From Chromobacterium piscinae (GTDB lineage Bacteria > Pseudomonadota > Gammaproteobacteria > Burkholderiales > Chromobacteriaceae), in NCBI RefSeq assembly GCF_021129175.1, contig NZ_JAJOHV010000026.1, forward strand, positions 1 through 64,000: 64,000 nt of DNA, written 5' to 3'. The position numbers and the translations under genes are program-made. Below, piece after piece: positions 1,838-25,856 of the stretch (position 1 is its first letter; each line of letters opens with the position of its first letter). The notes under the pieces are model-generated. The model was not told where the DNA came from and did not search any database. It was given only the letters and a program-made list of their open reading frames with translations.

Positions 1838-3442
1838 CTACAGGCGTATGGTTTGGCAGCCGCTGCTGCCGGTCTTCTTGACGCGGTACATCGCCTGGTC
1901 TGCCGCCTGCAGCAGGCTGTCCGGATTGCTGTAGCCGTCGCCGATGGCGATGCCGATGGAGATGCCCAACTGGCAGGAGGTGCCGGAGACCAAGAAGGGC
2001 GTGTCGAAGGCTTCCAGGCATTTGCCGGCCACGGTGCGGGCGATGTCTTCGGCCTTGTCGTCCAGATCGCTCAGCAGCAGCACGAATTCATCCCCGCCTA
2101 TCCGGGCCAGGGTGTCGCTCTGGCGCACGGTGCCGGACAGGCGCTGCGCGGCCTGCCACAGCACCTTGTCGCCTGCTTTGTGGCCCAGGGTGTCGTTGAT
2201 CATCTTGAAACTGTCCAGGTCCATGAACAGCAGCGCCAGCCGGGTTTCCCGGCGCTGGGCCTGGGCCAGCGCCACGTGCAGCCGGTCGGACAGCAGCAAA
2301 CGGTTGGGCAGGCCGGTCAGCGAGTCGTGGTGGGCCATCTGGGCCAGTTCCGTCTGCTTGTCTTCCAGCTTGCGCAGCAGGCGGTTGAAGGAGGCGATCA
2401 GATAGCCGACTTCGTCTTTGCGGTGTATCGGCAAGGGCTCCAGCGGCAATTCGCCCCGCGTCATGCGGTCGGCGTGGCGGGCGGCGCGGAACAGCGGGCG
2501 CAGCACGATGTACATGCCGCCGCAGGCCAGCAGCGAGAACACGACGAAGGCGATCAACGCCTGGCGCAGCGTGAAGCTCTGTACACGGGCCACGGTGGCG
2601 AAGGCGTCCCGGCCGGGCAGCTTGGCCACCACCAGCCAGCCGGTGCTGGGCACCTGCACGATGGCGCGGACCTCCTCCTCTCCCTGCAGTGTGGCCGCCA
2701 CCGCCGCGCCGCGATAGCCGGCCATCGCCTGATCGTGCAGCGGGTCGCGCCCGGGCTCAGGCGTCGGCTGCAGCGTCAGCTCGCTTTGCGAGGCGGTGAT
2801 GATCTGATGGTCGCGCGGGGAAATCAGCAGGAAGCTGTCGCGATGGTCGCCGATTCGGGATTGCTGCAGCAAATCAAGGAAACCCGGCGCGGCGATGGCG
2901 GTGACGCCGACCAGCACCGCCGGCACTTCGCCGCTGACCTGCACCGGCGCCGACATCGGCAAAACCGGCACGCCCGAACTGCGGCCGGTTGTCGCCTTGC
3001 CGATGTAGAACCGGCCTTGCAGGGATTGCCGGATATAGTCGCGGTCGCCGTAGTTGACCTGCATCCGGTGCGGCACCTCCGGATAGTCGGCGATCACGCG
3101 GCCGTCCGGCCTCACCACGAACAAGCCGATGGAGAATAGCGGCTGGTACTGGTAACGCTCCTTCAGCCAGGCGCGCAGGGCGTCAGGTTGGTCCAGCAGC
3201 TCAGGCGGCAGCGCGGTGGCCAGGCGGGACAGCAAAGCCTTGCGCTGCCTGATCTTGTCGTCGATGTCGTGGGCGACGTAGCCGGCCAGCGCCAGCTGCT
3301 GCTCGGACACGACCTGGCCCAGATCCTGCCGCAGAAAGGAGCCCAGCGCGTAGTAACGCGATAGCACGCCGAAGATCATGATGGCCAGGGACAGCGCCAA
3401 CAGGCGGATGATGATGCTGTCCGACAGGCGTTTGGACCTCAT
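1838..3442 (-). CDS. Membrane diguanylate cyclase (dCACHE-HAMP-GGDEF)
   Basis: Makes cyclic di-GMP from two GTP. From ATG at 3440-3442 (GGAG five bases upstream) it has 534 residues. An N-terminal membrane helix is followed by a periplasmic double-CACHE-like sensor, a second membrane helix near [19 protein letters not shown], a HAMP segment, and a C-terminal GGDEF domain beginning at [11 protein letters not shown]. The active-site loop is intact (GGDEF, about residues 449-453). The product-inhibition site RxxD (RQSD) lies exactly five residues before it, so feedback inhibition is expected. No EAL domain is present. A longer start at 3514 is possible, but its AAGGAG sits only two bases from the ATG. 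Downstream on the same strand is a chemoreceptor; the two may be co-transcribed. Confidence 0.92.
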
Positions 3443-3802
3443 GTCTGCTCCGCTCCGTTCGCTCGCGTTCCGCCCGGGCTCAGGCCGCCGCTTTTCTCGC
3501 GCAAGGTCAACCATCGCTCCTTCTCGAGGATGCGGAGCGAAGCGCCATTTTCTGAGAGCGGCAAATCTGCTGCGCCGTATGGCTTTGCGGGGTCTTATTC
3601 ATCTGTCGTCGCCTGTGTCCAGTCCTCACTATAGATAAGAGCCGCGGGGCTTTCCGCCCGCATAGGTCTAGCGCGGCAAGACAAGCTTCATGCCGGGTTC
3701 ACCAGCCTGTCATCGCTGGCGCTTATCGTTGCGCTGTTTTGTTTCAATCAGTCCGATGTGTAAGTAGATTTGTCTATACGTCTAACCCAAGGAGCATCGT
3801 CG
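3443..3802. promoter_or_regulatory. Intergenic region, divergent promoters
   Basis: About 360 bp between the diguanylate cyclase and the ABC transporter operon, which are transcribed away from each other, so it must hold both promoters. I see no convincing gene in it. If the cyclase used its upstream ATG at 3514 the gap would be 288 bp. A short direct repeat, GTCTA at 3772-3776 and 3780-3784, lies just before the Shine-Dalgarno of the transporter; its meaning is unknown. Confidence 0.45.
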
Positions 3803-4825
3803 ATGAAAAAGCAGATGGCTGTCGCGGCCGCCCTGGCCGTATCCGGGCTGCTGTCCCCGCTGGCGCAGGCCAAGACCACGCTGACCGTCTACACCGCGCT
3901 GGAAGCGGACCAGGTGAAGGATTACAAGGACGCGTTCGAGAAGGCCAATCCAGACATCGACATCCGCTGGGTGCGCGAATCCACCGGCGTGATCACCGCC
4001 CGGCTGCTGTCGGAGAAAAACCATCCCCAGGCCGACGCCGTGTGGGGCCTGGCCGCCACCAGCCTGATGATCCTGGACCAGCAGGGCATGCTGCAGGGCT
4101 ACGCGCCCAAAGGCGTGGAGAAACTAAGCCCGCAGTTCGTCGACAAGGCCAGGCCGCCGAAATGGACCGGCATGGACGTATGGGCCGCCGCCATCTGTTT
4201 CAACACCGTGGAAGCGGCGAAAAAGAATCTGCCCAAGCCGGAAAGCTGGACCGATTTGACCAAGCCGGTCTACAAGGGCCAGATCGTGATGCCGCATCCG
4301 GCTTCGTCCGGCACCGGCTATCTGGATGTATCCGCCTGGCTGCAGACCCTGGGCGAGAAGAAGGGCTGGGACTACATGGACAAGCTGCACGCCAATATGG
4401 CGCAGTACGTCCATTCCGGCTCCAAACCGTGCAAGATGGCCGCCGCCGGCGAGTACCCGATCGGCATCTCGTTTGAATATCGCGGCGCGCAGTTGAAGGA
4501 GAAGGGCGCGCCGATCGACCTGATCTATCCGAAGGAAGGCTTGGGCTGGGATCTGGAGGCCACCGCCATCATCAAGGGCACCAAGAACCTGGAAGCCGCC
4601 AGGAAGCTGGCCGACTTCTCGGTGAGCCTGCCGGCGATGAAGCTGTACGAGCAGAACTACGCGGTGCTGGCGATGCCGGGCGTGGCCAAACAGAACCCCT
4701 ATATCCCGGTCGACTACTCGCAGCGGCTGTCCAAGAACAACTTCGGCTGGGCCGCCAAGAACCGCGACGCCATCCTGAAGGAATGGTCGCGCCGCTATGA
4801 AAGCAAGGCCGCGCCGAAAGAATAA
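3803..4825 (+). CDS. ABC transporter substrate-binding protein (2-aminoethylphosphonate/Fe3+ type)
   Basis: Periplasmic solute-binding protein of 340 residues. The start ATG at 3803 has AAGGAG eight bases upstream. The signal peptide MKKQMAVAAALAVSGLLSPLAQA is cleaved before KTT. The mature start TLTVYTALEADQ and the segments WVRESTGVITARL and DAVWGLAATS are typical of the family that holds Fe(III)-binding proteins and PhnS2, the putative 2-aminoethylphosphonate binder; I judge the phosphonate subgroup more likely. The gene is followed by an ATPase and a double permease in the same direction, forming a complete importer. A strong hairpin directly after the stop codon may raise its expression relative to the downstream genes. 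No phosphonate-degrading gene is nearby, so the substrate remains an inference. Confidence 0.85.
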   Translation: MKKQMAVAAALAVSGLLSPLAQAKTTLTVYTALEADQVKDYKDAFEKANPDIDIRWVRESTGVITARLLSEKNHPQADAVWGLAATSLMILDQQGMLQGYAPKGVEKLSPQFVDKARPPKWTGMDVWAAAICFNTVEAAKKNLPKPESWTDLTKPVYKGQIVMPHPASSGTGYLDVSAWLQTLGEKKGWDYMDKLHANMAQYVHSGSKPCKMAAAGEYPIGISFEYRGAQLKEKGAPIDLIYPKEGLGWDLEATAIIKGTKNLEAARKLADFSVSLPAMKLYEQNYAVLAMPGVAKQNPYIPVDYSQRLSKNNFGWAAKNRDAILKEWSRRYESKAAPKE

Positions 4826-6001: not shown

Positions 6002-7692
6002 GCCTGGCGCGACGATGGCTTCCCGCCGCGCTGCGGGTGGATGGCGAGCGCCTGGCCGGCGCCGCGCTGGCCTGGGCGCTGCTGGGATGTCTGGCGCTGG
6101 CGCTGGGGCTGCCGCTGCTGTTCATCCTCGGCAAATCGGTGCTGACCATGGACGGCGATTTCGCCGGACTCGGCAATTTCGCCGAGGTGCTGGCTTCGCC
6201 CGGCCTGATGCGCGCGGCCGGCAACAGCTTGCTGCTGGCCTTGACGGTGTCGGCGCTGGTGGTGCCGTCGGCTTTCGCTTTCGCCTGGGCGCTGTGCCGC
6301 AGCCGGGCGCCGGGCAAGGGGATGTTCCGCCAGATCGCGTTGCTGCCGTTATTGGCGCCGTCGCTGCTGCCGGCCATCTCGCTGGTTTACCTGTTTGGCA
6401 ACCAGGGCCTGTTGAAAGGCTGGCTGGGCGGCGGATCGGTTTACGGCTTCTGGGGCATGGTCGCCGGCGAGGCGTTCTATGCCTTTCCCTATGCCCTCAT
6501 GCTGCTTGCCACGTCCTTGTCCGTCGCCGACGCCAGACTGTACGAGGCGGCGCGGGCGATGGGCGCCGGCGCGTGGCGGCGCTTCGCCACCATCACGCTG
6601 CCGGGCGCGCGCTACGGCCTGGCCTCGTCGGCGCTGCTGGTGTTCACGCTGGTGCTCACCGATTTCGGCGTGCCCAAGGTGGTGGGCGGCGACTGCAATG
6701 TGTTGGCGGTGGAGGCGTTCAAGCAGGTAGTGGGGCAGCAGAACTTTCCGCGCGGCGCGGTGGTGGGTCTGATGCTGCTGCTGCCGGCCGTGCTGTCCTG
6801 CTTCATCGAGCGGGCGATGTCGCACCGCCAGCGCGCGGCCTTGTCCGCGCTGTCGACGCCGTTTGCGCCATCCCGGGCCCCGGCGCGGGACGCGGCCGCG
6901 CTTACCATGCTGGCGATCATGGCCATGCCGTTGCTGGCGCTGATGGGCGTCGGCGTGGCGGCTTCCTTCATCAAGTATTGGCCGTACGATCTGAGCCTGA
7001 CGCTGGCCCACTACCGTTTCGACCAAGTGGACGGCGGCGGCTGGGGCGCGTATTTCAACAGCCTGGAAATGGCCGCGGCCACCGCGCTGATCGGCGCGAC
7101 GCTGGTTTTCCTGGGCGCATACTGTTGCGAGAAGCTGCCGGCCGCGCCGTTGGCGAGGGGCATGCTGCGATTCTTCGCGATGCTGCCGATGGCGGTGCCT
7201 GGCCTGGTGCTGGGCCTGGGCTACGTGTTCTTCTTCAACCACCCCGACAATCCGCTCAACGGCTTGTATGGCGGCCTGGCGCTGATGACGGCCTGCACGG
7301 TCGCCCACTTCTACACCACCGCCCATCTGACCATCGCCACCGCGCTGAAGCAGATGGACGGCGAATTCGAAGCGGTGGCCGCCGCGCTGAAAGTGCCGTT
7401 CTGGATCACGCTGCGCCGGGTGACGCTGCCGGTTTGCCTGCCGGCGCTGCTGGACGTGTCGCGCTTCCTGTTCGTGTCGGCGATGACCACGCTGTCGGCG
7501 CTGGTGTTCATCGCCGGGCCGGAGCGCAGCCTGGCGGCGGTGGCCATCGTGACCATGGACGACGCCGGCGACACCGCCGCCGCCGCCGCGATGGCGACGC
7601 TGATCGTGCTCAGCTCGGCGCTGGCCTCGCTGGCGGCGTCGCTGTTGTCGCGCCGGCTGGTGGGGCGCGGCCAGCCGTGGCGTCCGCGCTGA
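5995..7692 (+). CDS. ABC transporter permease, fused double-domain
   Basis: Inner-membrane permease of 565 residues with two BinPDT-like permease halves in one chain, about 12 membrane helices. The EAA-type loops are recognisable in each half: one around YEAARAMGAGAWRRFATITLPG and one around FEAVAAALKVPFWITLRRVTLP. Such fused permeases occur in FbpB and in PhnU2-type transporters. The start ATG at 5995 overlaps the ATPase stop by seven bases and has GGGGGAAG before it. It completes a three-gene operon with the binding protein and ATPase. Substrate is not decided by sequence: 2-aminoethylphosphonate is favoured, Fe(III) is the alternative. Confidence 0.9.
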   Translation: MLSLARRWLPAALRVDGERLAGAALAWALLGCLALALGLPLLFILGKSVLTMDGDFAGLGNFAEVLASPGLMRAAGNSLLLALTVSALVVPSAFAFAWALCRSRAPGKGMFRQIALLPLLAPSLLPAISLVYLFGNQGLLKGWLGGGSVYGFWGMVAGEAFYAFPYALMLLATSLSVADARLYEAARAMGAGAWRRFATITLPGARYGLASSALLVFTLVLTDFGVPKVVGGDCNVLAVEAFKQVVGQQNFPRGAVVGLMLLLPAVLSCFIERAMSHRQRAALSALSTPFAPSRAPARDAAALTMLAIMAMPLLALMGVGVAASFIKYWPYDLSLTLAHYRFDQVDGGGWGAYFNSLEMAAATALIGATLVFLGAYCCEKLPAAPLARGMLRFFAMLPMAVPGLVLGLGYVFFFNHPDNPLNGLYGGLALMTACTVAHFYTTAHLTIATALKQMDGEFEAVAAALKVPFWITLRRVTLPVCLPALLDVSRFLFVSAMTTLSALVFIAGPERSLAAVAIVTMDDAGDTAAAAAMATLIVLSSALASLAASLLSRRLVGRGQPWRPR

Positions 7693-7698
7693 CCGTTC

Positions 7699-7719
7699 AC
7701 GCCGGCATGGTGCCGGCGT
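7699..7719 (+). terminator. Hairpin after the ABC operon
   Basis: Nine-bp stem ACGCCGGCA/TGCCGGCGT with a three-base loop, beginning six bases after the permease stop. Only a weak T-run follows, so termination efficiency is uncertain. Confidence 0.5.
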
Positions 7720-7865
7720 TCATTGGCAAGAGGGGAGTACGGCGTATTACTTAAGCGGCCTGCAATCGCTTTGCCTTGATTTGATGACGGACTATATCTG
7801 AAAGGCATGTCATCGCCGGCCCCGCCAGGCGGTCCGGTCGTCATCGTCAATCGCGGGGTCGCGCC

Positions 7866-9291: not shown

Positions 9292-12200
9292 ATGATAGAC
9301 ACTTCGGAAGCCAAACTCGGATTGGGCAAGGGCAAACCGTCTTCTTCCGTTTGGTGGGCGTTGGCCGGCCTCGGCATCGCATTGTTCGGTCTGGGCGCCT
9401 CGCTGCTGCTGAACGAAATCCACACATCCCACTTTCAGTCGATGTTCTTCAGCCGCGCCGGCCGCCATGCCACTTTCGCGGTGGAGCAGGGGCCGAGCAA
9501 GGAAATGCGCTTTCCCTCTCCCGGCGGTCCCTACGACCAGCGCATGGGCTATGTCGAGCTGCCGCGCTTCCTGCAGCGGCTGGGGCAGCGCGGCTACGCG
9601 ATAGACGCCCAGGCCAGGCAGTCGCCCGATTTGATCAAGCTGACCGACCGCGGCGTCACCGGACCGCTGCTGCCGCTGGGTTTGTTCCCGCCGTTCCGCG
9701 AGAAGGACCAGGCCGGGCTGCTGGTCAGGGACGGCTACGGCAGGCCCATTTACCAGTCGCAGTATCCGCAGCGGATATACAGCAATTTCGAATCGCTGCC
9801 GCATCTGCTGGTGGCCGGCCTGCTGTACATCGAAAACCATACCCTGCTGGACGATGGCAATCCGCAGCAGAATCCGGCCATCGAATGGTCGCGCTTCGGC
9901 AAGGCGCTGGCCGACGAGAGCCTGCACCTGTTCCGTCCCGGCTACCACTCGGCGGGCGCCAGCACCCTGGCCACCCAGATCGAGAAGTTCCGCCATTCCC
10001 CCGGCGGCCGCACCGGCTCGCCCAAGGAAAAGCTGCGCCAGATGTTGTCGGCCTCGGTGCGCGCCTACCACAACGGCGAGGACACCACCGCTTTCCGCCG
10101 CCAGCTGGTGGTGGAGTATCTGAACACGGTGCCGCTGGCGGCGCGCGCCGGTTTCGGCGAGATATCCGGCATCGGCGACGGCATGTGGGCCTGGTATGGC
10201 CGCTCTTTCGACGAGATGAACCGCACGCTGGACAACGACTCTCCGCTGACGGTGGACGAGCAGGCCACCGTGTTCAAGGAGGCGTTCAGCCTGATGATTT
10301 CCCAGCGCGGACCGTCCGCTTACCTGAATGGCGACATGAAGGTGCTGGAAGACCTGACCAATTCCTATCTGAGGCTGATGGCGCGGGACAAGGTGATTTC
10401 GCAGGAGCTATGCGACGCGGCGCTGAAGGTGTCGCTGCGGCAGCAGAAGGAAAAAGTGAATCCGACGGTCAAGTCGCTGGTAGAGCGCAAGGGCGCCAAC
10501 GCGGTGCGGATCAAACTGGCCGGCATGCTGGGCATGCCCAGGCTGTACGATCTGGACCATGTCGATCTCGAGGTCAACAGCACGCTGGATTCGCAGCTGC
10601 AGCAGTCGGTCACCGACCACTTGATGAAGCTGCGCGACCCCGAGTACGCGAAGTCGGTGGGCCTGGGCGACAAATTCCTGCTGCAGCAGGGCTCGCCGGA
10701 GGGCGTGACCTACAGCTTCACGCTGATCGAGCGCACGCCGTTCGGCAACAAGGTGCGGGTGCAGGCCGATAATTTCGACCAGCCCTTCGACATCAACGAG
10801 GGCACCAAGCTGGACCTGGGCTCCACCTCCAAGCTGCGCACGCTGGTCACCTATCTGGAAGTGATCGCCGATCTGCACCGGCAATACGCGGGCCTGAGCC
10901 CTGAGGCGCTGGGCAAGATCAAGTCGGGCGAGCATGAGTCGGTGCTGCGGCGCTGGGCGATAGACTATCTGCGCCAGAGCGACGACCGCAGCCTGCCGGC
11001 GATGCTGGCGGCTTCCCTGGAGCGCAAGTACAGCGCCAGCCCGGGAGAGAGCTTCTTCACCGGCGGCGGCCGCCACACCTTCGAGAATTTCGACAAGAAC
11101 GACAACGGCCGCATTCTGAGCCTGCGCGAGGCGACCCAGCGCTCGGTGAACCTGGTCTACATCCGGGTGATGCGCGACATCGTCCGCTATTACATGTATC
11201 CGGCCGGCTACGACGACACCCTGATGGGCGACAAGGAAGACCCGCGCCGGCGCGAATACCTGCAGCGCTTCGCAGACAAGGAAGGCAAGACCTTCATGGC
11301 CGGCTTCTACCACAAGTACCGCGGCAAGGATGTGAACCAGATCGACGCGTTGCTGGTGGAGAAGGCGCGGCGCAGTCCCAAGCGGCTGGCGGTGATCTTC
11401 CGCAGCATCCGTCCGACGGAAGACCAGCAGGCGATGGCGGCCTTCATCGCCAAGCACGCCAATCCGCCGGCCAAGCTGGAACCCGCGACGCTGGCCAAGC
11501 TGTACGACGAGCTGGGACCGGACCGCTTCAACCTGGCCGACCGCGGCTACCTGGCCGGCGTCCATCCGCTGGAGCTGTGGATGGTCGCCTATCTGCACGC
11601 GCATCCCGACGCGGGCTGGAGCGAGATGGTCCAGGCCAGCGCCGCCCAGCGCCAGGAAGTGTACCAGTGGCTGTTCAACAGCAAGCACAAGGGCGGCCAG
11701 GACAACCGCATCCGCCAGATCCAGGAAACCGACGCTTTCCGCAAGATACACGCGGCGTGGAAGCGGATGGGCTATCCCTTCGACTCCCTGGTGCCGTCCT
11801 ACGCCACCGCGCTGGGCGCTTCGGCCGACCGGCCGGCGGCCCTGGCCGAGCTGATGGGCATCCTGTCCAATGACGGCGTGCGCCTGCCCACCGTCTACAT
11901 CGACAAGATGCGCTTCGCCGAGGCCACGCCGTACGAGACTTCGCTGGCGCAGGCGCCGACGCGCGGGGTGAGGGTGCTGCCGCCGGAAATCCCGCAACTG
12001 GTGCGCCAGGTGCTGTCCGAAGTGGTGGACAAGGGCACCGCCCACCGGGTGGCCGGCTCTTTCGACCGCAAGAAGGGCGAGCACACGCTGATAGGCGGCA
12101 AGACCGGCACCGGCGACAACCGCTTCAAGACCTTCTCGCGCGGCGGCGGCTTGACCTCGGCGCGGGTGGTCAGCCGCTCCGGCGCCTTCGTGTTCTATAT

Positions 12201-12528
12201 CGGCGACCATTACTTCGGCACCATCGTCGCCTATGTGGCCGGACCCAAGGCGGCCGATTACCGGTTTACCAGCGCCTTGCCGGTGCAGGTGCTGAAAGTG
12301 CTGGCGCCGACCTTGCTGCCGCGCCTGGACTACACCCCGCTCGAAACCAGCCGCGGCGCGGACAGCGTGGCGGAAGGAACGCCGGACGCCGGCCTGCCGC
12401 CGGGCACGCCCTTGTGCCTGGTGCCCAGCATGGGCGGCATGTGCCAACTGCTGCAGCAGCCGGAAATGAAGCCGGGTCCGCCGGCGAGCCAGGATGAGGC
12501 CAGGCGGGGAGGCCGCGGGCTTGCGTGA
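9292..12528 (+). CDS. Giant bifunctional penicillin-binding protein (GT51 + transpeptidase)
   Basis: A 1078-residue inner-membrane protein with one N-terminal anchor (residues 20-40). The glycosyltransferase-51 domain is recognised by IENHTLLDD at 180-188 (Glu181 in place of the usual EDRRF glutamate) and GASTLATQIEKF at 222-233 (usual GGSTITQQ). The transpeptidase domain has STSK with Ser511 as nucleophile, SVN at 618-620 and KTGTG starting at Lys937. The gap from the serine to KTG is about 425 residues, against about 190 in E. coli PBP1b, so a large insertion sits between SVN and KTG. It would polymerise and cross-link peptidoglycan. It follows a lipoprotein and a small helical protein, and ends in a clear terminator. 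Confidence 0.88.
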   Translation: MIDTSEAKLGLGKGKPSSSVWWALAGLGIALFGLGASLLLNEIHTSHFQSMFFSRAGRHATFAVEQGPSKEMRFPSPGGPYDQRMGYVELPRFLQRLGQRGYAIDAQARQSPDLIKLTDRGVTGPLLPLGLFPPFREKDQAGLLVRDGYGRPIYQSQYPQRIYSNFESLPHLLVAGLLYIENHTLLDDGNPQQNPAIEWSRFGKALADESLHLFRPGYHSAGASTLATQIEKFRHSPGGRTGSPKEKLRQMLSASVRAYHNGEDTTAFRRQLVVEYLNTVPLAARAGFGEISGIGDGMWAWYGRSFDEMNRTLDNDSPLTVDEQATVFKEAFSLMISQRGPSAYLNGDMKVLEDLTNSYLRLMARDKVISQELCDAALKVSLRQQKEKVNPTVKSLVERKGANAVRIKLAGMLGMPRLYDLDHVDLEVNSTLDSQLQQSVTDHLMKLRDPEYAKSVGLGDKFLLQQGSPEGVTYSFTLIERTPFGNKVRVQADNFDQPFDINEGTKLDLGSTSKLRTLVTYLEVIADLHRQYAGLSPEALGKIKSGEHESVLRRWAIDYLRQSDDRSLPAMLAASLERKYSASPGESFFTGGGRHTFENFDKNDNGRILSLREATQRSVNLVYIRVMRDIVRYYMYPAGYDDTLMGDKEDPRRREYLQRFADKEGKTFMAGFYHKYRGKDVNQIDALLVEKARRSPKRLAVIFRSIRPTEDQQAMAAFIAKHANPPAKLEPATLAKLYDELGPDRFNLADRGYLAGVHPLELWMVAYLHAHPDAGWSEMVQASAAQRQEVYQWLFNSKHKGGQDNRIRQIQETDAFRKIHAAWKRMGYPFDSLVPSYATALGASADRPAALAELMGILSNDGVRLPTVYIDKMRFAEATPYETSLAQAPTRGVRVLPPEIPQLVRQVLSEVVDKGTAHRVAGSFDRKKGEHTLIGGKTGTGDNRFKTFSRGGGLTSARVVSRSGAFVFYIGDHYFGTIVAYVAGPKAADYRFTSALPVQVLKVLAPTLLPRLDYTPLETSRGADSVAEGTPDAGLPPGTPLCLVPSMGGMCQLLQQPEMKPGPPASQDEARRGGRGLA

Positions 12529-12605
12529 CGGCGGCGCAAGTGATAAGTTAGGCGAACTATATCCGCCGTCAGGCGCAAGCCTGCGGCCGTAAGCGTTTAC
12601 GTCAA

Positions 12606-12652
12606 GCAACGCACCCTAGCCACCCGGCCGTGGCGCGGTGCGTTGCCTTTTT
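12606..12652 (+). terminator. Rho-independent terminator after the penicillin-binding protein gene
   Basis: Ten-bp stem GCAACGCACC/GGTGCGTTGC, with a second small stem (GCCAC/GTGGC) inside the loop, followed by CC and five T. It lies 78 bp after the stop codon and 47 bp before the next start. Confidence 0.8.
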
Positions 12653-12698
12653 GAAGCGACCGCCGCGCAAGCCGGGATCTGCGCGGAGACCGCTGTTC

Positions 12699-13889
12699 AT
12701 GCCCGAAGTCCTGTCATTTTCTCAAGCTTACCGCCGTCTGCTGGCCAAGACGGCGGCGTTGTTCCTGTCTTATCTGGCGGTGGCGATGTCGCTGCCGGTC
12801 ACCTCCATCTATGTGATCGACCAACTGCATTACGGCAACGCGCTGGGCGGGCTGGCAGTGGGCATCACCTTCTTTTCCACCATCCTGACCCGCGGCTACG
12901 CCGGCCGCCTGTGCGATCAGCAGGGTGGCAAGGCCTGCATGCAGCGCGGGCTGTACCTGTACATGCTGGCCGGCGCGGTTTGCCTGGCTTCGTCCTGGCT
13001 GGCCGACCAGCCGGCCCTGGCCTTGGGCGTGCTGCTGTCCGGGCGCTTGCTGCTGGGGCTGGGCGAGAGCCTGGCGATCGTCGGCATGGCGGCCTGGAGC
13101 ATAGGCCTGATGGGGCCGGCCCACTCCGGCAAGGTGATGTCGCTGGTGGGCATGGGCATGTACGGCGCTTTCGCCGCGGGCGGGCCTCTGGGGCTGCTGC
13201 TGTTCCAGCAGGCGGGCTTCCAGCCGTTGATGCTGGCCTGCGCGTTATTACCGCTGGCCGGGTTGCTGCTGATCCGGCGGTTTCCGCGCATCGCGCCGCA
13301 TGCCGGCCAGCGGGAGTCCTTCCTGCGCATTCTGGGGCGGATCGGCAAGCCGGGCGCGGCGGTCTTTCTGCAAGGGGTCGGCTTCGCCGGCTTGGGTGCC
13401 TTCTTCGCCTTGTATTTCTCCAGCCGCGGCTGGGCCTGGGGCAGCCTGGGCCTGACCGGTTTCGGCGTCGGCTTCGTGCTGGTGCGCGTGCTGTGCGGCC
13501 ATCTGCCCGACCGCATCGGCGGCGCGAAGGTGGCGCTGGCCTCGCTGGCGGTGGAGGCCGTCGGCCAGTGGCTGATCTGGAGCGCGGCCACGCCGGCCGC
13601 AGCCCTGCTGGGGGCGCTGCTGACCGGCGTCGGCTGCTCGATGGTGTTTCCGGGCATGGGCGTGGAAGTGATCAAGCGCGTGCCCGCCCATCTGCGCGGG
13701 TCCGCGCTGGGCGGCTTCGCGGCTTTCCAGGATCTGGCCTATGGCTTGACGGGGCCGGTGGCCGGCTTGTTCGCCGACAGCTTCGGCTACGGCGCGGTAT
13801 TTCTGACCGGGGCCGTGGCGGCCATGCTGGGCATGGCCATGGTGGCGCTGATGCTGGCCGAGCGCGCGCCGGAGCCCGCGCGCGGCTAG
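12699..13889 (+). CDS. MFS transporter, YhhS/YfcJ-like
   Basis: Inner-membrane major facilitator protein of 396 residues with about 12 helices. The cytoplasmic loop between helices 2 and 3 carries the MFS signature in the form RGYAGRLCDQQGGKACMQRG, and LSGRLLLGLGESLA matches the YhhS/YfcJ (UPF0226) family, which includes sugar-efflux-like and drug-efflux-like proteins. Start ATG at 12699 was preferred over an upstream ATG-like start at 12630, because the extra 23 residues are Arg/Pro-rich and lie in the terminator hairpin. It is convergent with cynS but is not a CynX homologue as far as can be seen. Substrate unknown. Confidence 0.87.
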   Translation: MPEVLSFSQAYRRLLAKTAALFLSYLAVAMSLPVTSIYVIDQLHYGNALGGLAVGITFFSTILTRGYAGRLCDQQGGKACMQRGLYLYMLAGAVCLASSWLADQPALALGVLLSGRLLLGLGESLAIVGMAAWSIGLMGPAHSGKVMSLVGMGMYGAFAAGGPLGLLLFQQAGFQPLMLACALLPLAGLLLIRRFPRIAPHAGQRESFLRILGRIGKPGAAVFLQGVGFAGLGAFFALYFSSRGWAWGSLGLTGFGVGFVLVRVLCGHLPDRIGGAKVALASLAVEAVGQWLIWSAATPAAALLGALLTGVGCSMVFPGMGVEVIKRVPAHLRGSALGGFAAFQDLAYGLTGPVAGLFADSFGYGAVFLTGAVAAMLGMAMVALMLAERAPEPARG

Positions 13890-19816: not shown

Positions 19817-19996
19817 TTGCCAAATGATCGGCATGAAATTCAGTAAAATTGCCAAATTTAATGTAATGGCTTTGTGAACAATCAAGCTTTTCTTAATAAA
19901 AATTAAGTCAAGCAAGCTTGCTAAAGAATGCTTATGTGCTAAATTGTTATTAATGGAATGATCATGTTCGTGACATTCAACCATCTACCCCTTTGC
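19817..19996. other. AT-rich intergenic stretch
   Basis: About 180 bp, strikingly AT-rich against its surroundings, between two convergent genes (DUF3100 on +, A-T-TE synthetase on -). No start codon of an annotated gene is near, so it does not serve as a known promoter. It contains the palindrome AGCAAGCTTGCT (19912-19923) and two promoter-like pairs on the + strand: TTGTGA 19872-19877 with TAATAA 19894-19899, and TTGCTA 19918-19923 with TAAATT 19940-19945, each with a 16-bp spacer. A terminator follows at 19997-20019. Confidence 0.5.
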
Positions 19997-20019
19997 GGCC
20001 GCCTTGCGCGGCCTTTTTT
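19997..20019 (+). terminator. Rho-independent terminator
   Basis: Stem GGCCGC/GCGGCC with loop CTTGC and six T (20014-20019). It faces the + strand and would end transcripts of the M20-DUF3100 operon, or of a small RNA from the AT-rich stretch before it. Confidence 0.75.
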
Positions 20020-20042
20020 CTTTCCGTTCGTTTGTCCTGCAG

Positions 20043-20063
20043 GGAGGGCGGTTGTCGCCCTCC
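20043..20063. terminator. Hairpin after the A-T-TE synthetase gene
   Basis: Perfect eight-bp stem GGAGGGCG/CGCCCTCC with a five-base loop, four bases beyond the synthetase stop codon on the minus strand. It lacks a T-tract in either direction, so it may only protect the 3' end. Confidence 0.4.
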
Positions 20064-20067
20064 GAGT

Positions 20068-22848
20068 TCATTGGCCATTCAGCACGCAGTCGAGCTCCTG
20101 CCTCAACGCGGCTTGGAAGCCGGCCACGTGCCGTGTGTCCAGCATGGTATTGTGCTCGCCGTCCACCTCGATGTAATGATTGGGCTCGCGTGAAAAATCG
20201 TCCCACCGCCTGAGCTCATCGTTCAGCCAGTCAGCTTTGTTGCCATAAAGCGGGTGGGCGTAGAACACGCTCAGCGAGCGGACGCTGCCGCTAGGCTCAT
20301 AGCTGCTTCCCATCGAAGTCAGCGAGTGGGCGAGCAATGACCAGGCCGTGAATTTTTCCAGGTCCAGGTCCAGCTCGGCCAGCCGTTCCGGCGGCGCGTG
20401 GTCTATCAGCCAGCGCCGGAAGTCCTGGTCCGGCAGGGCGCGCAGCTTGTCGGGCAGCTCATCCGCCTGCCTGCGGTCGATCAGCGACAGGAAGAAGGCG
20501 AGGTGGACCGCGCCCTTGACCGGATCGAACTCGCTCATTCGATGACGGATGTGCGGCGGCAGATTGAAGATGCCGACAAAGTCCACTCGTTCGCCGTCGG
20601 CTTCCAATGTCTTGGCTATCTCGAAGGCGACCGCCCCGCCGTAGGAATAGCCGGCGATGGCATAGGGGCCGCGGGCTTGGCGCCCGCGGATGGCGGCGAC
20701 ATAGGCGGCCACCATCTCGTTGAAATCGGTGAAATGGCTTTCTCCTTCGTTGAAGCCGCGCGCGCGCAGCGCATGGAATGGGCGTTCGTTGACGAAGTAT
20801 TGCGCCAGGCTGACGAAGACAAGCACCTCGCCGACGCCGGGGTGGACGCAGAACAACGGCGTCTTGGCTCCGCTGCTTTGCAGCGTGACGATGGGGGCGT
20901 AGGCGGCGCCGCCGGTTTCGCGGCCGGCCTCCAGCCTAGCCGCGAGTCGCCGTACGATGGGGTGGGTCAGAATGTCGAGCACCGGCAGGGGCGCGCAATC
21001 GAAACGCCGTTCCAGCATGTGTTTGAGCTTCAAGATGTCGAGCGAGGTGCCGCCCAGATCGAAAAAGCTGCTGTTGGCGCCGATTGCGTCGCAGGGCAGG
21101 CTGAACATGTCGGCGAAAATGCCGGCGACCGCCTGTTCGGCTTCGCTCTCCGCAGGCTGGAGCTTGCCGAAATAGCGCGTGGCTATCTCGTTCGCATGGC
21201 GGATATGCGCGTCCAGCGCGCCTTCCTCCAACCGTCGGCGCAGCAGCGCGCGCTGGATCTTGCCCAGGCTGGTTTTGGGAAAGGCTTCTTTCGGCAGCGG
21301 CAATACCAGCGAGGGGCGGAAGCCCCACAGCAGCAGGGCGGTGTTGCGGATCGCGATCATCGTCTGGTGCAGCCGGAGTCCGTTTTCGATAGGAAAGGAT
21401 GGGAAGAAGGCCAGCACCAGTTGCTCGGTGTCCGCGGCGGGCGGGCGGGTGGGAAAGGCGGCGATGAAGAGTTTGTCCACGCAGTCCAGCTGCGAGATGG
21501 CGAGCTCCAGTTCCTGGCTGAAGTAATTGACGCCGCTGACGATGATGCTGTCCTTGCTGCGGCCGACCAGGCGCAGCTCGCCGTCGGCCAACTGGCCGAT
21601 GTCTCCACTGCGGAACCAGCCGTCCCGCGAGAAGGCCGCGCGTGTCGCGTCCGGGTTGCGGTAGTAGCCGCGGAAGACCATGGGGCCGCGCAATTGCAGT
21701 TCTCCAGGCTGCCCGTCGGGCAGCGGCTGGTCCGCCTCGTCGACGATGCGCAGTTGCATGCCGCGCACCGGCCGGCCCAGCGCCGCGAGCTCGAAGCCGG
21801 CGTCGGCGGCGGGGAAGTCGTGGGAAAACACCGATCCGGCGCAGGTCTCGGTCATGCCGAAAGCCGGCGATATCGCCGTGGCGGCGAGGCCATGCGGCGC
21901 CAGCAGGCTCAAGAACCGGCTGGCGGTCTCCACCACCACGGCTTCTCCGCCGGAAATGATGCGGCGCAACCGTGACAGGTCTAATGCCGGAGGGGGCGGA
22001 TGGGCTTGGACGAGCGCGCGATTGATCTCGCCGAACAGGAAGTTGGGCGTGAAGGTCAGGGTGGCGCGCTGCGCGCTCAGCAGATGGAGGAACGAGAGCG
22101 GGTGGCTCAGGATGCGCTCGGCGGCCGCATGCGCCTGGATCATGCCGACATGGGTGGGCAGCAGCACGGCTTCGATCAACGCGGCGACGTGATCGAACGA
22201 TATCCAGTTGAAGCCGATGTCTTCCGGGGCCAGGCGCAGGCTTTCCGTCTTGGCGGCCAGGCTGGACAGCAGGTTGGCGTGGCTGAGGATGACGGCCTTG
22301 GCGTTGCCGGTGGAGCCTGAGGTCAGGACCAGGACCGCGGGCGCGTCCGGCGCCGGCGCCTGGACTTTGCCTAGTGCGCGGCTGCGCAGCAGTTGGTCGA
22401 ACTCTAGCGTGTCCAGGCCGTGGGTTCGGAGATTGGCGGGCGCCTTGATTATCAGCGCCGGATGCCCGAGCAACTGGTCAACGTGGGTCAAATGTTTCTC
22501 CCAGCGCTCAGGATCGTTCCGGATGGGGGCGAGGGGGCAGGGCACATAAGCCCCCAGCGCGCAGGCCCAGAAGGCTGGGATGAAATCCTCAGCCTGTTCC
22601 AGCAGCAAGGCAGTCGGCCTGCCGGGTCCAAGTCCGCGGGCCTGCAGGCCCGCCAGGATGCGCAGCGCGAGGCTGAGCAGTTCGGGATAGCGGATCTCCT
22701 TGGCGGTTTTCCAATCATCCGCTACCAGCCGCAGGCCGTGTTCGGGTTGAGACGCCGCGGCGCGGACCAGCAACTCGCCGATGTGAGTCGCGGGGGCTGA
22801 AAGGCGCTCCGCATCCGGGAGCGGAGACGAGGCAAACGAAGCATTCAT
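20068..22848 (-). CDS. RalA-like A-T-TE synthetase (furanone/quinone synthetase type)
   Basis: A 926-residue single-module enzyme without a condensation domain. Adenylation domain: TSGSTG 176-181, SFDHV 217-221, GMTET 331-335, GRSKDSIIVSG 429-439, catalytic Lys530 in PKTSLGK. Thiolation domain: Ser602 in LGGTS for phosphopantetheine. Thioesterase: CVHPGVGEVLVF near 667-678, nucleophile Ser735 in GYSYG, then FNLPPHI and His899 in GEHNTM. This TE, with HPGVGEVLVF, ALRARGFN and FNLPPHI, is what I recall from fungal atromentin, microperfuranone and didemethylasterriquinone synthetases and from RalA (ralfuranone) of Ralstonia. Those join two aromatic 2-oxo acids (phenylpyruvate, 4-hydroxyphenylpyruvate, indolepyruvate) into furanones or quinones. 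The product here is unknown. AAGGA lies eight bases before ATG 22846-22848. An O-methyltransferase gene precedes it in the same operon. Confidence 0.88.
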   Translation of the reverse strand: MNASFASSPLPDAERLSAPATHIGELLVRAAASQPEHGLRLVADDWKTAKEIRYPELLSLALRILAGLQARGLGPGRPTALLLEQAEDFIPAFWACALGAYVPCPLAPIRNDPERWEKHLTHVDQLLGHPALIIKAPANLRTHGLDTLEFDQLLRSRALGKVQAPAPDAPAVLVLTSGSTGNAKAVILSHANLLSSLAAKTESLRLAPEDIGFNWISFDHVAALIEAVLLPTHVGMIQAHAAAERILSHPLSFLHLLSAQRATLTFTPNFLFGEINRALVQAHPPPPALDLSRLRRIISGGEAVVVETASRFLSLLAPHGLAATAISPAFGMTETCAGSVFSHDFPAADAGFELAALGRPVRGMQLRIVDEADQPLPDGQPGELQLRGPMVFRGYYRNPDATRAAFSRDGWFRSGDIGQLADGELRLVGRSKDSIIVSGVNYFSQELELAISQLDCVDKLFIAAFPTRPPAADTEQLVLAFFPSFPIENGLRLHQTMIAIRNTALLLWGFRPSLVLPLPKEAFPKTSLGKIQRALLRRRLEEGALDAHIRHANEIATRYFGKLQPAESEAEQAVAGIFADMFSLPCDAIGANSSFFDLGGTSLDILKLKHMLERRFDCAPLPVLDILTHPIVRRLAARLEAGRETGGAAYAPIVTLQSSGAKTPLFCVHPGVGEVLVFVSLAQYFVNERPFHALRARGFNEGESHFTDFNEMVAAYVAAIRGRQARGPYAIAGYSYGGAVAFEIAKTLEADGERVDFVGIFNLPPHIRHRMSEFDPVKGAVHLAFFLSLIDRRQADELPDKLRALPDQDFRRWLIDHAPPERLAELDLDLEKFTAWSLLAHSLTSMGSSYEPSGSVRSLSVFYAHPLYGNKADWLNDELRRWDDFSREPNHYIEVDGEHNTMLDTRHVAGFQAALRQELDCVLNGQ

Positions 22849-22936
22849 GTTTCTGGTCCTTAACGTGATGAGCGAAGAAAGCGGCGGCTTGCGCGCCGAT
22901 GGCGGACGGAAGCTGGGCGGGGCGAGGGGGGAGGGC

Positions 22937-24004
22937 TTAGCGCCTGACGCTTTCGATCAGGCTCAGGAGGCTTTCGGTGGGAAGGACGCGGGTCGGGCGC
23001 AGGCCAGCGGAGCGATGCAGGCGGTGGAAGTCGTCCAGCGTGCGTTCCCGCCCGCCGGGATAGTTGACCAGCATGTGCAGGTCCAGCAGCTTGGAGAAAT
23101 GAGGCTCGTTCGGCGGCGCCAGAATCATTTCCGCCAGCAGCAGCTTGCTGTCGGGCCGCATCGCCGCGGCGCAGTTGGACAGGAAACGCTGCGCATGCGC
23201 ATCGTCCCAGTCATGGACGATGTGCTTCATGATGTAGAGATCCGCGCCCGGCACCACAGCTTCCAGCGCGTTGGACGTGACCACCTCGGCGCGCGCGGCT
23301 AGCCCGCGCGCGGCGAACAAATGGCGCGCGGACTCCGCCGCATGCGGCAGCTCTTGCAAAATGCCCCGCGCCGACGGCGCGGCGGCGAGGATTTCGGCCA
23401 GCAGCTGGCCGCGGCCGCCGCCGACATCGACGATGAGCCCGGCGTTGGAGAAGTCGTAGGCGCTAACCAGCGCCGGCGCCTCCTGTTCGCTCAGATTGAC
23501 CATGGCGCTGTCGACGATTTCGGCGGCGTCAGGGTGCTCTCCGATGTATTCGAACAGCGTTTGGCCAGTAAGGTGATGGAAGGCGCTCCGGCCAGTTTTG
23601 ACGCTGTAGAGCATGTGGCCCCAGGCGCGCCATATCGGGTCGATGCCCATTTGCCGGACCAGGCTGCGCAGGGAGCCGGGAATATCGCTGCGCAAGGTTT
23701 CACTGAGCGGGGTGTTGCGGAACCGCCGGCCTTCGCTTTCGTGGAACAGGCCAGCGCAGCCCAGAGTCTGCAGCAGGCGGTACAAGGCATCCGGCTGCGC
23801 GCCGCAGGCGGCGGCAAGTTCGTCGACCGATTGTTCTTTTTCGACTAGGCGATCCGCTAGGCTCAGCTCGGCGGCCACCACGATGGCTTGGGATAGCCAG
23901 GCGCCGGTCACCAGCCGCCTCATTGTCTGCTGCGCCTGGGCGGCATCGTTGGACCTTGGGACGGTGTTGACCGGCGAACCGGCTGCAACAGCTGTTTGAT
24001 ACAT
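22937..24004 (-). CDS. SAM-dependent O-methyltransferase (acetylserotonin O-MT type)
   Basis: A 355-residue small-molecule O-methyltransferase of the plant COMT-like/Methyltransf_2 family. It has an N-terminal dimerisation winged helix (residues 28-115), SAM-binding motif VDVGGGRG at 192-199, catalytic base His264 in KHIVHDWDD and the C-terminal DLHMLVNYPGGRERT. Such enzymes methylate phenolic or enolic hydroxyls of aromatic natural products. Start ATG at 24002-24004 has AGGAGGG six bases upstream; the frame continues upstream without family sequence. It is the first gene of an operon with the A-T-TE synthetase, 88 bp apart, so it probably decorates that enzyme's furanone or quinone product. 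Confidence 0.9.
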   Translation of the reverse strand: MYQTAVAAGSPVNTVPRSNDAAQAQQTMRRLVTGAWLSQAIVVAAELSLADRLVEKEQSVDELAAACGAQPDALYRLLQTLGCAGLFHESEGRRFRNTPLSETLRSDIPGSLRSLVRQMGIDPIWRAWGHMLYSVKTGRSAFHHLTGQTLFEYIGEHPDAAEIVDSAMVNLSEQEAPALVSAYDFSNAGLIVDVGGGRGQLLAEILAAAPSARGILQELPHAAESARHLFAARGLAARAEVVTSNALEAVVPGADLYIMKHIVHDWDDAHAQRFLSNCAAAMRPDSKLLLAEMILAPPNEPHFSKLLDLHMLVNYPGGRERTLDDFHRLHRSAGLRPTRVLPTESLLSLIESVRR

Positions 24005-24117
24005 GATTTCCCTCCTGAACCGGTGTCTTTCGGCTAGACGGCGAACGTGCTTCTCGCAATGGAAACGCAAGCGCTTGAACCGGTGATGAGTGGTCGGCGC
24101 GCAGATGGCAGCGACAT

Positions 24118-24148
24118 TTGTAAACGATGTCTAACGAATTGTTTACAA
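24118..24148. promoter_or_regulatory. Inverted repeat upstream of the O-MT/A-T-TE operon
   Basis: Perfect eight-bp inverted repeat TTGTAAAC (24118-24125) and GTTTACAA (24141-24148) with a 15-bp spacer, about 115-145 bp upstream of the O-methyltransferase start. It lies in an AT-rich patch that also has TATATAAG near 24207-24214. The half-site spacing (23 bp, about two helical turns) suits a dimeric regulator. The regulator is not identified. Confidence 0.5.
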
Positions 24149-24300
24149 GCCATTATCATCTGCCGGCTTCGAGCTCATGACACCTGTACTTTTGATAAGG
24201 TATTGATATATAAGTGTTTTTATCGGTTTTGGCAGGGCGTCGGAAGGGGGGGGAGGAGCGTCAGGGGCGCCGGCAGCGTTCTTGGATGCGCCCAGCTGAC

Positions 24301-24558
24301 ATGATGATCTGGCGGCACAATTGCCGGAGGCGGCTGCTGCGCGTCGATGCGCCGATCTCCGTCACCGGGTTGGCGGAGAAGCTGGGCGTGTGGTGGGCGA
24401 CGGCGCAGCATCGCATCGCTAGGCTGGAAGAGAGCGGGGTGATCGTCGGCTACACGGCGAAGGTGAAGCCGGAGCCGGCCGCCAGGCGCATCCGGGGCGG
24501 GATGCGCATCCAGCGAAACCAGCATTCCGCTGTCCACGCGCAAGGCCCGGCGGCCGGC
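24301..24558 (+). pseudogene. Remnant of an Lrp/AsnC-family regulator
   Basis: The + frame from ATG 24301 reads as the HTH half of an Lrp/AsnC regulator: DAPISVTGLAEKLGV, then TAQHRIARLEESGVIVGYT, then the start of the effector domain (ARRIRGGMRIQ). After about residue 75 the similarity stops, and the frame runs on into sequence antisense to the next gene. The first helix is also degraded (MMIWRHNCRRRLLR where LDxxDxxLLxLL is expected), and WW replaces the usual serine-rich turn. A normal member has about 150 residues; here only some 65 are recognisable. I interpret it as a truncated, inactive gene. It is divergent from the O-methyltransferase operon and may once have regulated it. Confidence 0.65.
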
Positions 24559-24951
24559 TTACTTGGCCTGCGGCTTTTCCTGGTAGCAGGTGGTTTCCAG
24601 CAGGGTGGGCAACAGTTTGTCGGCGGCGTCGCGCCCCAGCGCGAATTGAACCTTGCCGGTGTTGATCACGGTCCGGACTACCGGAGCGCTGACGGGCACG
24701 TCGTTGATCACCACTACCATGCTTTGATTCAGGAAGTCGCCGGTGGCCTGCTGCAGGCGCGCGGCTGCAGTCTTATTGAGCGTGGCGCTCAGGGAGAGGC
24801 TGTCGCGCTGGATGTTCAGGCTGCTTTCGGTGAAATCGCAGGCGGAATCCAGACGCAGGATGTTGCCGGTGATGACCGGCTTGTTTGGCGCATCGGCCAT
24901 GGCTGCGGCGGAAACCAGCAGCGCGGCGGAGGCGGGCAGGAGAAACTTCAT
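24559..24951 (-). CDS. Small periplasmic protein with SecD-head-like domain
   Basis: A 130-residue exported protein. Signal peptide MKFLLPASAALLVSAAAMADA, with cleavage after Ala. The mature part ([47 protein letters not shown], in overlapping pieces) follows the layout of the SecD P1-head subdomain: an aggregate of the kind AxxFxxLT, then LAIVLDGxVxSAPVI. No membrane helices of SecD are present, so it is a free-standing head-like domain. Start ATG at 24949-24951 has GGAG six bases before it. It stands alone between a regulator remnant and an AraC-type regulator. Function unknown; export assistance is only a guess. Confidence 0.75.
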   Translation of the reverse strand: MKFLLPASAALLVSAAAMADAPNKPVITGNILRLDSACDFTESSLNIQRDSLSLSATLNKTAAARLQQATGDFLNQSMVVVINDVPVSAPVVRTVINTGKVQFALGRDAADKLLPTLLETTCYQEKPQAK

Positions 24952-25052
24952 CAAACGCTCCGTGTTCAAAGTGTGGCTCATCGCATTATGACCGAGGCCG
25001 CAGCCAGAGGTTGCGTGGACCGCCGGTTAGCTGCCGCAACAAATGCGGCCGG

Positions 25053-25856
25053 TCATTCGGTATCCGAAGCTGGCTCGGTATCGCTCCCGCCCAACTGCTG
25101 GCGGTACTGGCGCGGCGTCAGGCCGGTCAGGGCCTTGAACTGCCGGCTGAAGGCGCTGTGGTCGGCATAGCCGCAGCGCAGCGCCACTTCCGTGATTGCC
25201 ATATTCTCATGCAGCAGCCGGTGCGCGTGCTCCAGCCTGGCCTTGTGTATCATCTGCCGCGGCGACAGGTGGAACACCTTTTTGCAGTAGCGCTCCAACT
25301 GGGCGGCGGACATGCCGGCGATGCCGGTGAGCTCCGCCATGGTGACCGGCTGGCTGAAGTGGCGGCGGATGAACTCATCCACCGCCGCCAAGCGTTTGTA
25401 CGCCGGGTGGGTCTTGCTGGCTGCTTGCAGGTCCAGCGAGATGCCGATCAGGCCGATGATTTGGTCTTGCCGGTCGCGCAAGGGCCATTTGTAGGTCAGG
25501 CACCAACCCGGCTCCCGGTTCTTGAACAGATGCAGCTCCAGCTGGCTTTCCAGCACCAGGCCGTCTTGCAGCACCTTGAGATCCTGCGCCGTATACGCCG
25601 GCCCCAGCTGGGCTGGAAACACTTCCGCGCTGGTCTTGCCCAGCAGCGGCCGCAAATCCTTCAGCCCGCAGCGCTGCACCAGCGTCTGGTTGGCGCAGAG
25701 ATAGCGCGCCTGCCTGTCCTTGATGAAGATGGCCGCATTGGGGATCAGGTCCAGCACAGGCAATAGCGGGGCGATGCCCGCCAGCAGCTCGGCTATCGTC
25801 GCCGGGCGGATTTCGTCCCGCCAGCGGGCGATTTTTTCCACGGCCGCGCTTGTCAT
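25053..25856 (-). CDS. AraC-family regulator with PAS domain
   Basis: A 267-residue regulator. The N-terminal PAS-like fold spans about residues 25-145 (VLDLIPNAAIFIKDRQARYLCAN, then ITGxxSxDLQA-like end IIGLIGISLDLQAA). The C-terminal AraC double HTH spans about 160-258, with VTMAELTGIAGMSAAQLERYCKKVF and the second helix pair ITEVALRCGYADHSAFSRQFKALTGLTPRQYR. Start ATG at 25854-25856 has GAAGG before it; an upstream extension to 25979 lacks domain sequence. It is divergent from the hydroxyproline operon with a 290-bp shared upstream region, so it is the likely activator, perhaps sensing hydroxyproline or an intermediate through the PAS domain. Confidence 0.88.
   Translation of the reverse strand: MTSAAVEKIARWRDEIRPATIAELLAGIAPLLPVLDLIPNAAIFIKDRQARYLCANQTLVQRCGLKDLRPLLGKTSAEVFPAQLGPAYTAQDLKVLQDGLVLESQLELHLFKNREPGWCLTYKWPLRDRQDQIIGLIGISLDLQAASKTHPAYKRLAAVDEFIRRHFSQPVTMAELTGIAGMSAAQLERYCKKVFHLSPRQMIHKARLEHAHRLLHENMAITEVALRCGYADHSAFSRQFKALTGLTPRQYRQQLGGSDTEPASDTE

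Follow-up and report, generated by a model that had tools for sequence, protein, structure and literature searches.

Terphenylquinones are classic mushroom pigments, and the same core is also made by bacteria. In the excerpted text of the daturamycin report (PMC9379647), the synthetase DatA converts phenylpyruvate and ATP into polyporic acid in vitro, and the datA-datB-datC cluster is called highly similar to the echoside cluster. The datA strain yields betulinan A beside terferol and daturamycins, and the authors propose, in the same excerpt, that betulinan A and terferol originate from the methylation and oxidation of polyporic acid. In the echoside pathway, polyporic acid is reduced and dehydrated by two collaborating enzymes (PMC12105029, in excerpt), a reducing and dehydrating pair that is referred to here as EchB and EchC. 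The subject of this analysis is a 64,000-nucleotide stretch of Chromobacterium piscinae (positions 1 to 64,000 of the forward strand of contig NZ_JAJOHV010000026.1, assembly GCF_021129175.1; hereafter the window), which carries an adenylation–thiolation–thioesterase (A-T-TE) synthetase gene next to an O-methyltransferase (OMT) gene, with neither EchB nor EchC found. We read this pair, with a probability of about 0.62, as a polyporic acid synthetase and an OMT that acts on polyporic acid to give a mono- or dimethyl ether of the betulinan A type.

The synthetase gene (20,068..22,848, minus strand, ATG start) encodes a nonribosomal peptide synthetase (NRPS)-like protein of 926 residues, predicted to be a terphenylquinone or polyporic acid synthetase. 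Pfam assigns AMP-binding to residues 43–396, PP-binding to 572–639 and Thioesterase from 664 onward, and detects no condensation domain in the protein. Together with an alignment to McyG, these matches define an adenylation domain at approximately residues 43–541 (21,226..22,722), a thiolation domain at 572–639 (20,932..21,135), and a thioesterase domain at 664–926 (20,071..20,859), all on the minus strand. Lys530, the phosphopantetheine-bearing Ser602, Ser735 (within GYSYG), and His899 are all intact; Lys530, Ser735, and His899 are identical in 47 of 47 relatives compared, and Ser602 is invariant in a 21-row alignment. Upstream on the same strand, separated by a gap of 88 bp, lies the gene for a 355-residue COMT-type OMT (22,937..24,004), with Pfam Dimerisation and Methyltransf_2 domains and His264 within an HDW motif. 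Among solved structures, it is closest in sequence to 6c5b (listed only as "Methyltransferase"), AlpH, MmcR, and CalO6. Both genes are intact on the minus strand of 20,068–24,004, and chance open reading frames (ORFs) are ruled out because full-length relatives reach 62% identity. These features agree with the first-pass annotation of the locus, which had described a 926-residue A-T-TE enzyme without a condensation domain, with these four residues intact, preceded by a COMT-type OMT carrying His264. Its assignment of the two genes to one operon rests on their shared strand and close spacing; Shine-Dalgarno-like AGGAGG and AAGGA stand ahead of the two ATGs, one each, and no sigma-70-type promoter was found in 19,900–24,600 (0.8 expected).

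Relatives of the synthetase are scarce close to the window's genome and common in bacteria at large, given its absence from all 18 congeners compared and the 97 relatives that a four-row alignment recovered in scanning 84,980 species genomes. No match in the 40 other genomes compared, which include these congeners, was stronger than 1.1e-59. When 369 genomes of the class were sampled and scored for two candidates per genome, 15 other genomes matched at E ≤ 1e-56, none of them past query residue 666 (A or A-T only), and among 398 genomes of the B. stagnalis family, full-length A-T-TEs occur in seven (eight loci). The first-pass expectation that bacterial members of this group are rare is thus overturned by the scan. 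Among the best 80 of the 97 relatives, which were the ones analyzed, the closest is from Methylocapsa aurea (62% identity). The nearer full-length relatives are 54%–62% identical. Burkholderia enzymes stand at 58%–59%, those of Streptomyces with an ech/dat layout at 51%–57%, and Xenorhabdus A-T-TEs at 52%. A search of a plasmid collection with the synthetase (E ≤ 1e-40) matched 22 records, six of which covered at least 80% of the query: B. stagnalis was best (59%), followed by five Streptomyces plasmids (54%–55%). In the two Streptomyces plasmid records examined, the A-T-TE gene is followed first by a gene for an NAD(P)-dependent oxidoreductase and then by one for an NTF2-like protein, sharing the layout of datA-datB-datC. 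The likeness of the window enzyme to EchA and DatA, the A-T-TE synthetases of Streptomyces echosides and daturamycins, is drawn through such ech/dat-layout relatives and not from the EchA and DatA sequences.

A tblastn survey of the neighborhoods of these relatives required at least 30% identity for the OMT, 45% for EchB, and 40% for EchC, within 4 kb. It covered 87 loci, made up of 83 (L028–L110) and four Burkholderiaceae stretches, with B. stagnalis counted twice. EchB and EchC without an OMT within 4 kb were found at 52 loci, all actinobacterial, whereas the window has an OMT. The remaining loci hold EchB and an OMT (8/87), an OMT only (6/87), EchB only (1/87), or none of the three (17/87, one of them on a contig that stops just past the synthetase). 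The full set of A-T-TE, EchB-type epimerase/dehydratase, EchC-type SnoaL-like protein, and OMT occurs at three loci and in two extra Burkholderiaceae loci (L139 and L140). Methylocapsa aurea and Burkholderia carry such four-gene operons. An OMT is adjacent to the synthetase at 17 of the 87 loci, so the pairing of the two genes, which had been put forward as distinctive of this locus, also occurs in relatives; the unusual feature is the reduction, that is, EchB and EchC not being found. A review lists "betulinan" for the cluster BTH_II0204-207 (PMC9958762, in excerpt), and the terphenyl cluster of a B. thailandensis paper seems, from its excerpted text, to mean the same genes (PMC7042699). The four-gene Burkholderia operons probably correspond to this cluster.

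The synthetases of the four-gene operons are 58%–62% and their OMTs 54%–57% identical to those of the window, and the OMTs group together. These operons have EchB and EchC and place the OMT last, whereas in the window neither is found, the OMT precedes the synthetase, and the synthetase has a long branch. In a tree of the window synthetase and those of 26 of 89 loci, for which L134 and L135 were chosen as the root, the window pairs with Methylocapsa (91/91). It does so inside a set (100/99) containing the Burkholderia operons, actinobacterial enzymes including those of ech-type Streptomyces, and Hyalangium, with Xenorhabdus outside. This places it among synthetases mostly neighbored by EchB and EchC, a placement to be read with long-branch caution and with the EchA and DatA sequences outside the tree. 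In the OMT tree (21 rows), the window OMT joins those of the Methylocapsa and Burkholderia operons (96/90), so the synthetase and the OMT have probably travelled as a pair.

The same two genes also stand without adjoining EchB and EchC in B. stagnalis (L028 and L031), where the order is A-T-TE and then OMT rather than OMT first. B. stagnalis branches within the clade of four-gene Burkholderia, and relative to B. ubonensis it shows a clean 1,348-bp deletion that takes EchB and nearly all of EchC and leaves the other two genes apparently intact in two strains, a separate and recent loss. A pairing of the window with B. stagnalis is strongly rejected (approximately unbiased test, p-AU 2e-71), so the two-gene state is separate in the two lines. 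Since the window stands beside four-gene loci, we infer that its own two-gene state arose by loss too. The synthetase tree requires at least five changes for EchB and three for the OMT, counts that do not separate gain from loss.

The A domain is predicted to be of the 2-oxo acid type. Val221, at code position 1, aligns with the conserved Asp of the A domains of same-genus NRPSs (L006, L008, L010, and L011), a site that we take to be Asp235 of GrsA, the amino-binding position. The amino-binding Asp of amino acid–activating NRPS A domains is therefore absent from the window enzyme, and Val occupies code position 1 in 48 of 48 synthetases compared. At code position 5, by our own mapping, the window has Ile298, and its 47 relatives have Val (31) or Ile (16). 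In the excerpted text of PMC10316625, Val at code position 1 marks 2-oxo acid enzymes, and position 5 is Ile or Val with phenylpyruvate and Asn with 4-hydroxyphenylpyruvate, contributing to substrate choice without being a strict determinant. The Asn reported there at position 5 for atromentin synthetases is not present in the window, where Ile298 stands instead, and position 5 thus appears to be of the phenylpyruvate type. The nearest solved A domains, by both sequence and fold, are McyG A-PCP (adenylation–peptidyl carrier protein) and the keto acid–selecting 6ULX/6ULY/6ULW, a module that carries a keto acyl adenylate; fatty acyl-AMP ligases rank lower. The structure model (21-row alignment, mean predicted local distance difference test score 78.7, predicted template modeling score 0.57) was used only for these fold neighbors. 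The first-pass idea of a 2-oxo acid A-T-TE that lacks a condensation domain and has a cognate OMT is upheld.

Neither EchB nor EchC orthologs were found elsewhere in the source genome. For EchB, the genome offers only matches of 27%–31%; in the same comparison, B. ubonensis (the query's own genome) gives 100%, M. aurea gives 80%, and B. stagnalis LMG 28156, again, only 29%–33%. For EchC, there is a single match at 30%–33% (on contig C83), which was rejected as probably generic; similar matches (28%–33%) are seen in 14 of 18 congeners, all without the synthetase, making it an unlikely partner. We infer the substrate, the product, and the order of steps as follows. The A domain would adenylate an aryl 2-oxo acid, with phenylpyruvate the likeliest candidate, and load it onto Ser602. 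The thioesterase (Ser735/His899) would hold one unit during the loading of the second and join them by a double Claisen–Dieckmann condensation to a 2,5-diaryl-3,6-dihydroxybenzoquinone, which is polyporic acid if the substrate is phenylpyruvate. Because the reducing and dehydrating pair was not found, the OMT would be expected to take polyporic acid or its hydroquinone as substrate, methylating it directly to a mono- or dimethyl ether of the betulinan A type.

Several points weigh against this proposal. The end branch of the window synthetase is long (0.75, compared with 0.23 for Methylocapsa), which makes its place in the tree unsure; the data neither establish nor reject a clade of the window, Methylocapsa, and five Burkholderia (p-AU 0.060), and a pairing of the window with Xenorhabdus is rejected only marginally (p-AU 0.0405). 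A position-5 swap in CorA left the substrate unchanged (PMC10316625, in excerpt). No activity or product data were found for two-gene relatives, and an EchB/EchC pair lying in an assembly gap of the genome, which is in 194 contigs, retains some small chance. The window also departs at 13 sites from positions at least 95% conserved in its 47 relatives. Two of these departures, H228V (codon 22,165..22,167, minus strand; His in 47/47 relatives) and W327S (codon 21,868..21,870, minus strand; Trp in 46/47, Ala in one), are unique to it among 48 synthetases and lie near code positions by sequence, and they may alter the substrate. Together with the long branch, they favor a synthetase of the same class that uses another aryl 2-oxo acid, such as 4-hydroxyphenylpyruvate or indolepyruvate, and leads to a methylated atromentin- or asterriquinone-type core. 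We consider this doubtful. The mapped code positions are within family variation, with Ile and not Asn at position 5, and another relative, L100, has 34 such near-invariant departures by its own count. The divergence is spread across A, T, and TE rather than being specific to A: the window and Methylocapsa are 58% identical in the large part of the A domain, 55% in the T domain, and 70% in the TE domain, compared with 65%, 78%, and 79% between Methylocapsa and B. ubonensis. A changed aryl substrate is possible, yet the code positions give no sign of one. A bolder version of the same thought, to be held just as tentatively, is that a horizontally acquired, minimized pathway, having lost the reducing and dehydrating pair, has redirected its OMT from a reduced terphenyl to the quinone and, through an A pocket remodeled by H228V and W327S, takes up a different aryl 2-oxo acid, giving a methylated terphenylquinone new to bacteria.

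A furanone synthetase of the ralfuranone or xenofuranone type, in which the thioesterase would join two phenylpyruvates to a lactone and the OMT cap its hydroxyl, was the first-pass label, and it is unlikely. RalA and the fungal AtrA, MicA, and TdiA share the A-T-TE layout of the window synthetase, and Xenorhabdus, only marginally rejected as a sister to the window, carries the 52%-identical A-T-TEs. X. szentirmaii is a reported maker of xenofuranones, which are phenylpyruvate dimers, according to a title in the reference list of PMC5313471. The Xenorhabdus loci found are from species other than X. szentirmaii, however, and the comparison contains no characterized furanone synthetase sequence; RalA was returned neither by the plasmid search (E ≤ 1e-40; no Ralstonia among the 22 records) nor among the 80 genome-scan loci. 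The company that the window keeps in the tree is of synthetases mostly neighbored by EchB and EchC, enzymes that act on polyporic acid. In this comparison, which included no RalA sequence, the relatives are of the ech, dat, and Burkholderia terphenyl kind, and a reduced terphenylquinone operon describes the pair better than a RalA-like furanone cluster does. Among the product classes first named for it, a bis-aryl quinone or terphenyl-like compound is best supported, and the RalA/furanone label is not supported. A complete reductive route to terferol-type p-terphenyls, with unrelated genomic enzymes replacing EchB and EchC, is improbable: the window OMT does group with OMTs of four-gene operons that may methylate a reduced core, and terferol formed once an OMT was added to the fungal AlfA-AlfC-AlfD set (PMC12105029, in excerpt), but EchB and EchC orthologs were not found in the genome and the inserted segment holds two genes only. 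It is very improbable that the synthetase activates an amino acid or a fatty acid and has no relation to aryl 2-oxo acid dimerization. The best solved match, McyG (4R0M), was solved with phenylalanyl-adenylate, an amino acid, and its likeness alone would for that reason fit an amino acid too. The A domain grouping proposed as a check in the first-pass annotation was run in part, through the nearest solved structures, and put McyG and the keto acid–selecting domain ahead of fatty acyl-AMP ligases. The top NCBIfam families are fatty acyl-AMP/CoA ligases, an identity that was rejected because the top 25 of 101 matching families all fall well short of their cut-offs (highest score 235.7 bits, cut-off 572). 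Val221, moreover, replaces Asp at the amino-binding position.

The polyporic acid operon, as we prefer to read it, is best seen as an acquisition of this lineage, because a segment is missing between colinear flanks in near relatives and the synthetase is absent from the 18 congeners. The segment at 20,023..24,332 has no counterpart in the congeners G012 and G006. In G012, a 6.8-kb left flank matches at 96% identity as far as window position 20,022, and the match restarts at 24,333 (87%–89%); the left flank of G006 matches to 20,026 and restarts at 24,578, with about 215 bp between. In G015, the left flank alone matches within the 19 kb compared. The left neighbor gene was not found at E ≤ 1e-40 in the other 15 congeners, which are uninformative about the insertion point. 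At this point G012 has a gene of the dimethylarginine-hydrolase family together with an intact Lrp/AsnC regulator gene (L131, 7,955–8,377). Of the regulator gene, the window retains a plus-strand fragment (24,333..24,510) at the right edge of the insertion, with about 175 bp missing. An AsnC-like ORF at 24,214–25,170 was considered as a cluster regulator and rejected, as it covers this fragment of the pre-insertion-site gene. GC content at third codon positions is 0.80–0.82 in the two genes and 0.82–0.90 in eight neighbors, which is uninformative on transfer, and no tRNA was found in the window.

Other loci show further variation on the A-T-TE theme. Eight Streptomyces loci (L035, L050, L053, L061, L065, L079, L084, and L099) combine the synthetase with an EchB-type reductase and an OMT (34%–36% to that of the window) with EchC unmatched, reflecting either another dehydratase or other chemistry. 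An A-T-TE and OMT pair is also found in Hyalangium, Kibdelosporangium, Streptomyces canus, and Lentzea albida (L036, L082, L087, and L089), with more distant OMTs (39%–41%). In Xenorhabdus mauleonii (L047), an SMP-30/gluconolactonase-like gene (11,763–12,731, plus strand) comes next after the A-T-TE, and an OMT-family gene (6,856–7,830, minus strand) lies about 1 kb upstream on the opposite strand, a context that may be relevant to whether furanone or quinone products are made. In L134, a chorismate mutase/prephenate dehydratase gene (3,420–4,649, plus strand), possibly a dedicated phenylpyruvate supply, lies upstream of a stand-alone A-T-TE related to that of the window. Two A-T-TE loci (L136 and L137) occur in one Burkholderiaceae genome (G771): one A-T-TE belongs to a four-gene operon of the terphenyl type (59%), and the other lacks such neighbors (46%). 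In three Sporolactobacillaceae (L107, L108, and L109), the synthetase matches as two slightly overlapping pieces with shifted frames, and the gene is perhaps split or broken.

No description of a two-gene bacterial synthetase–OMT system was found in the open-licence literature, which is weak evidence of absence. Without a reductase or dehydratase, such a two-gene version is a minimal system for finding the true substrate of the OMT, and the synthetase and OMT are small and readily expressed. The arrangement suggests that a quinone ether could be the end product of the pathway. The OMT has been kept where EchB and EchC are missing in no fewer than two separate lines, those of the window and of B. 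stagnalis, a hint that the cell has a use for the methylated quinone itself.

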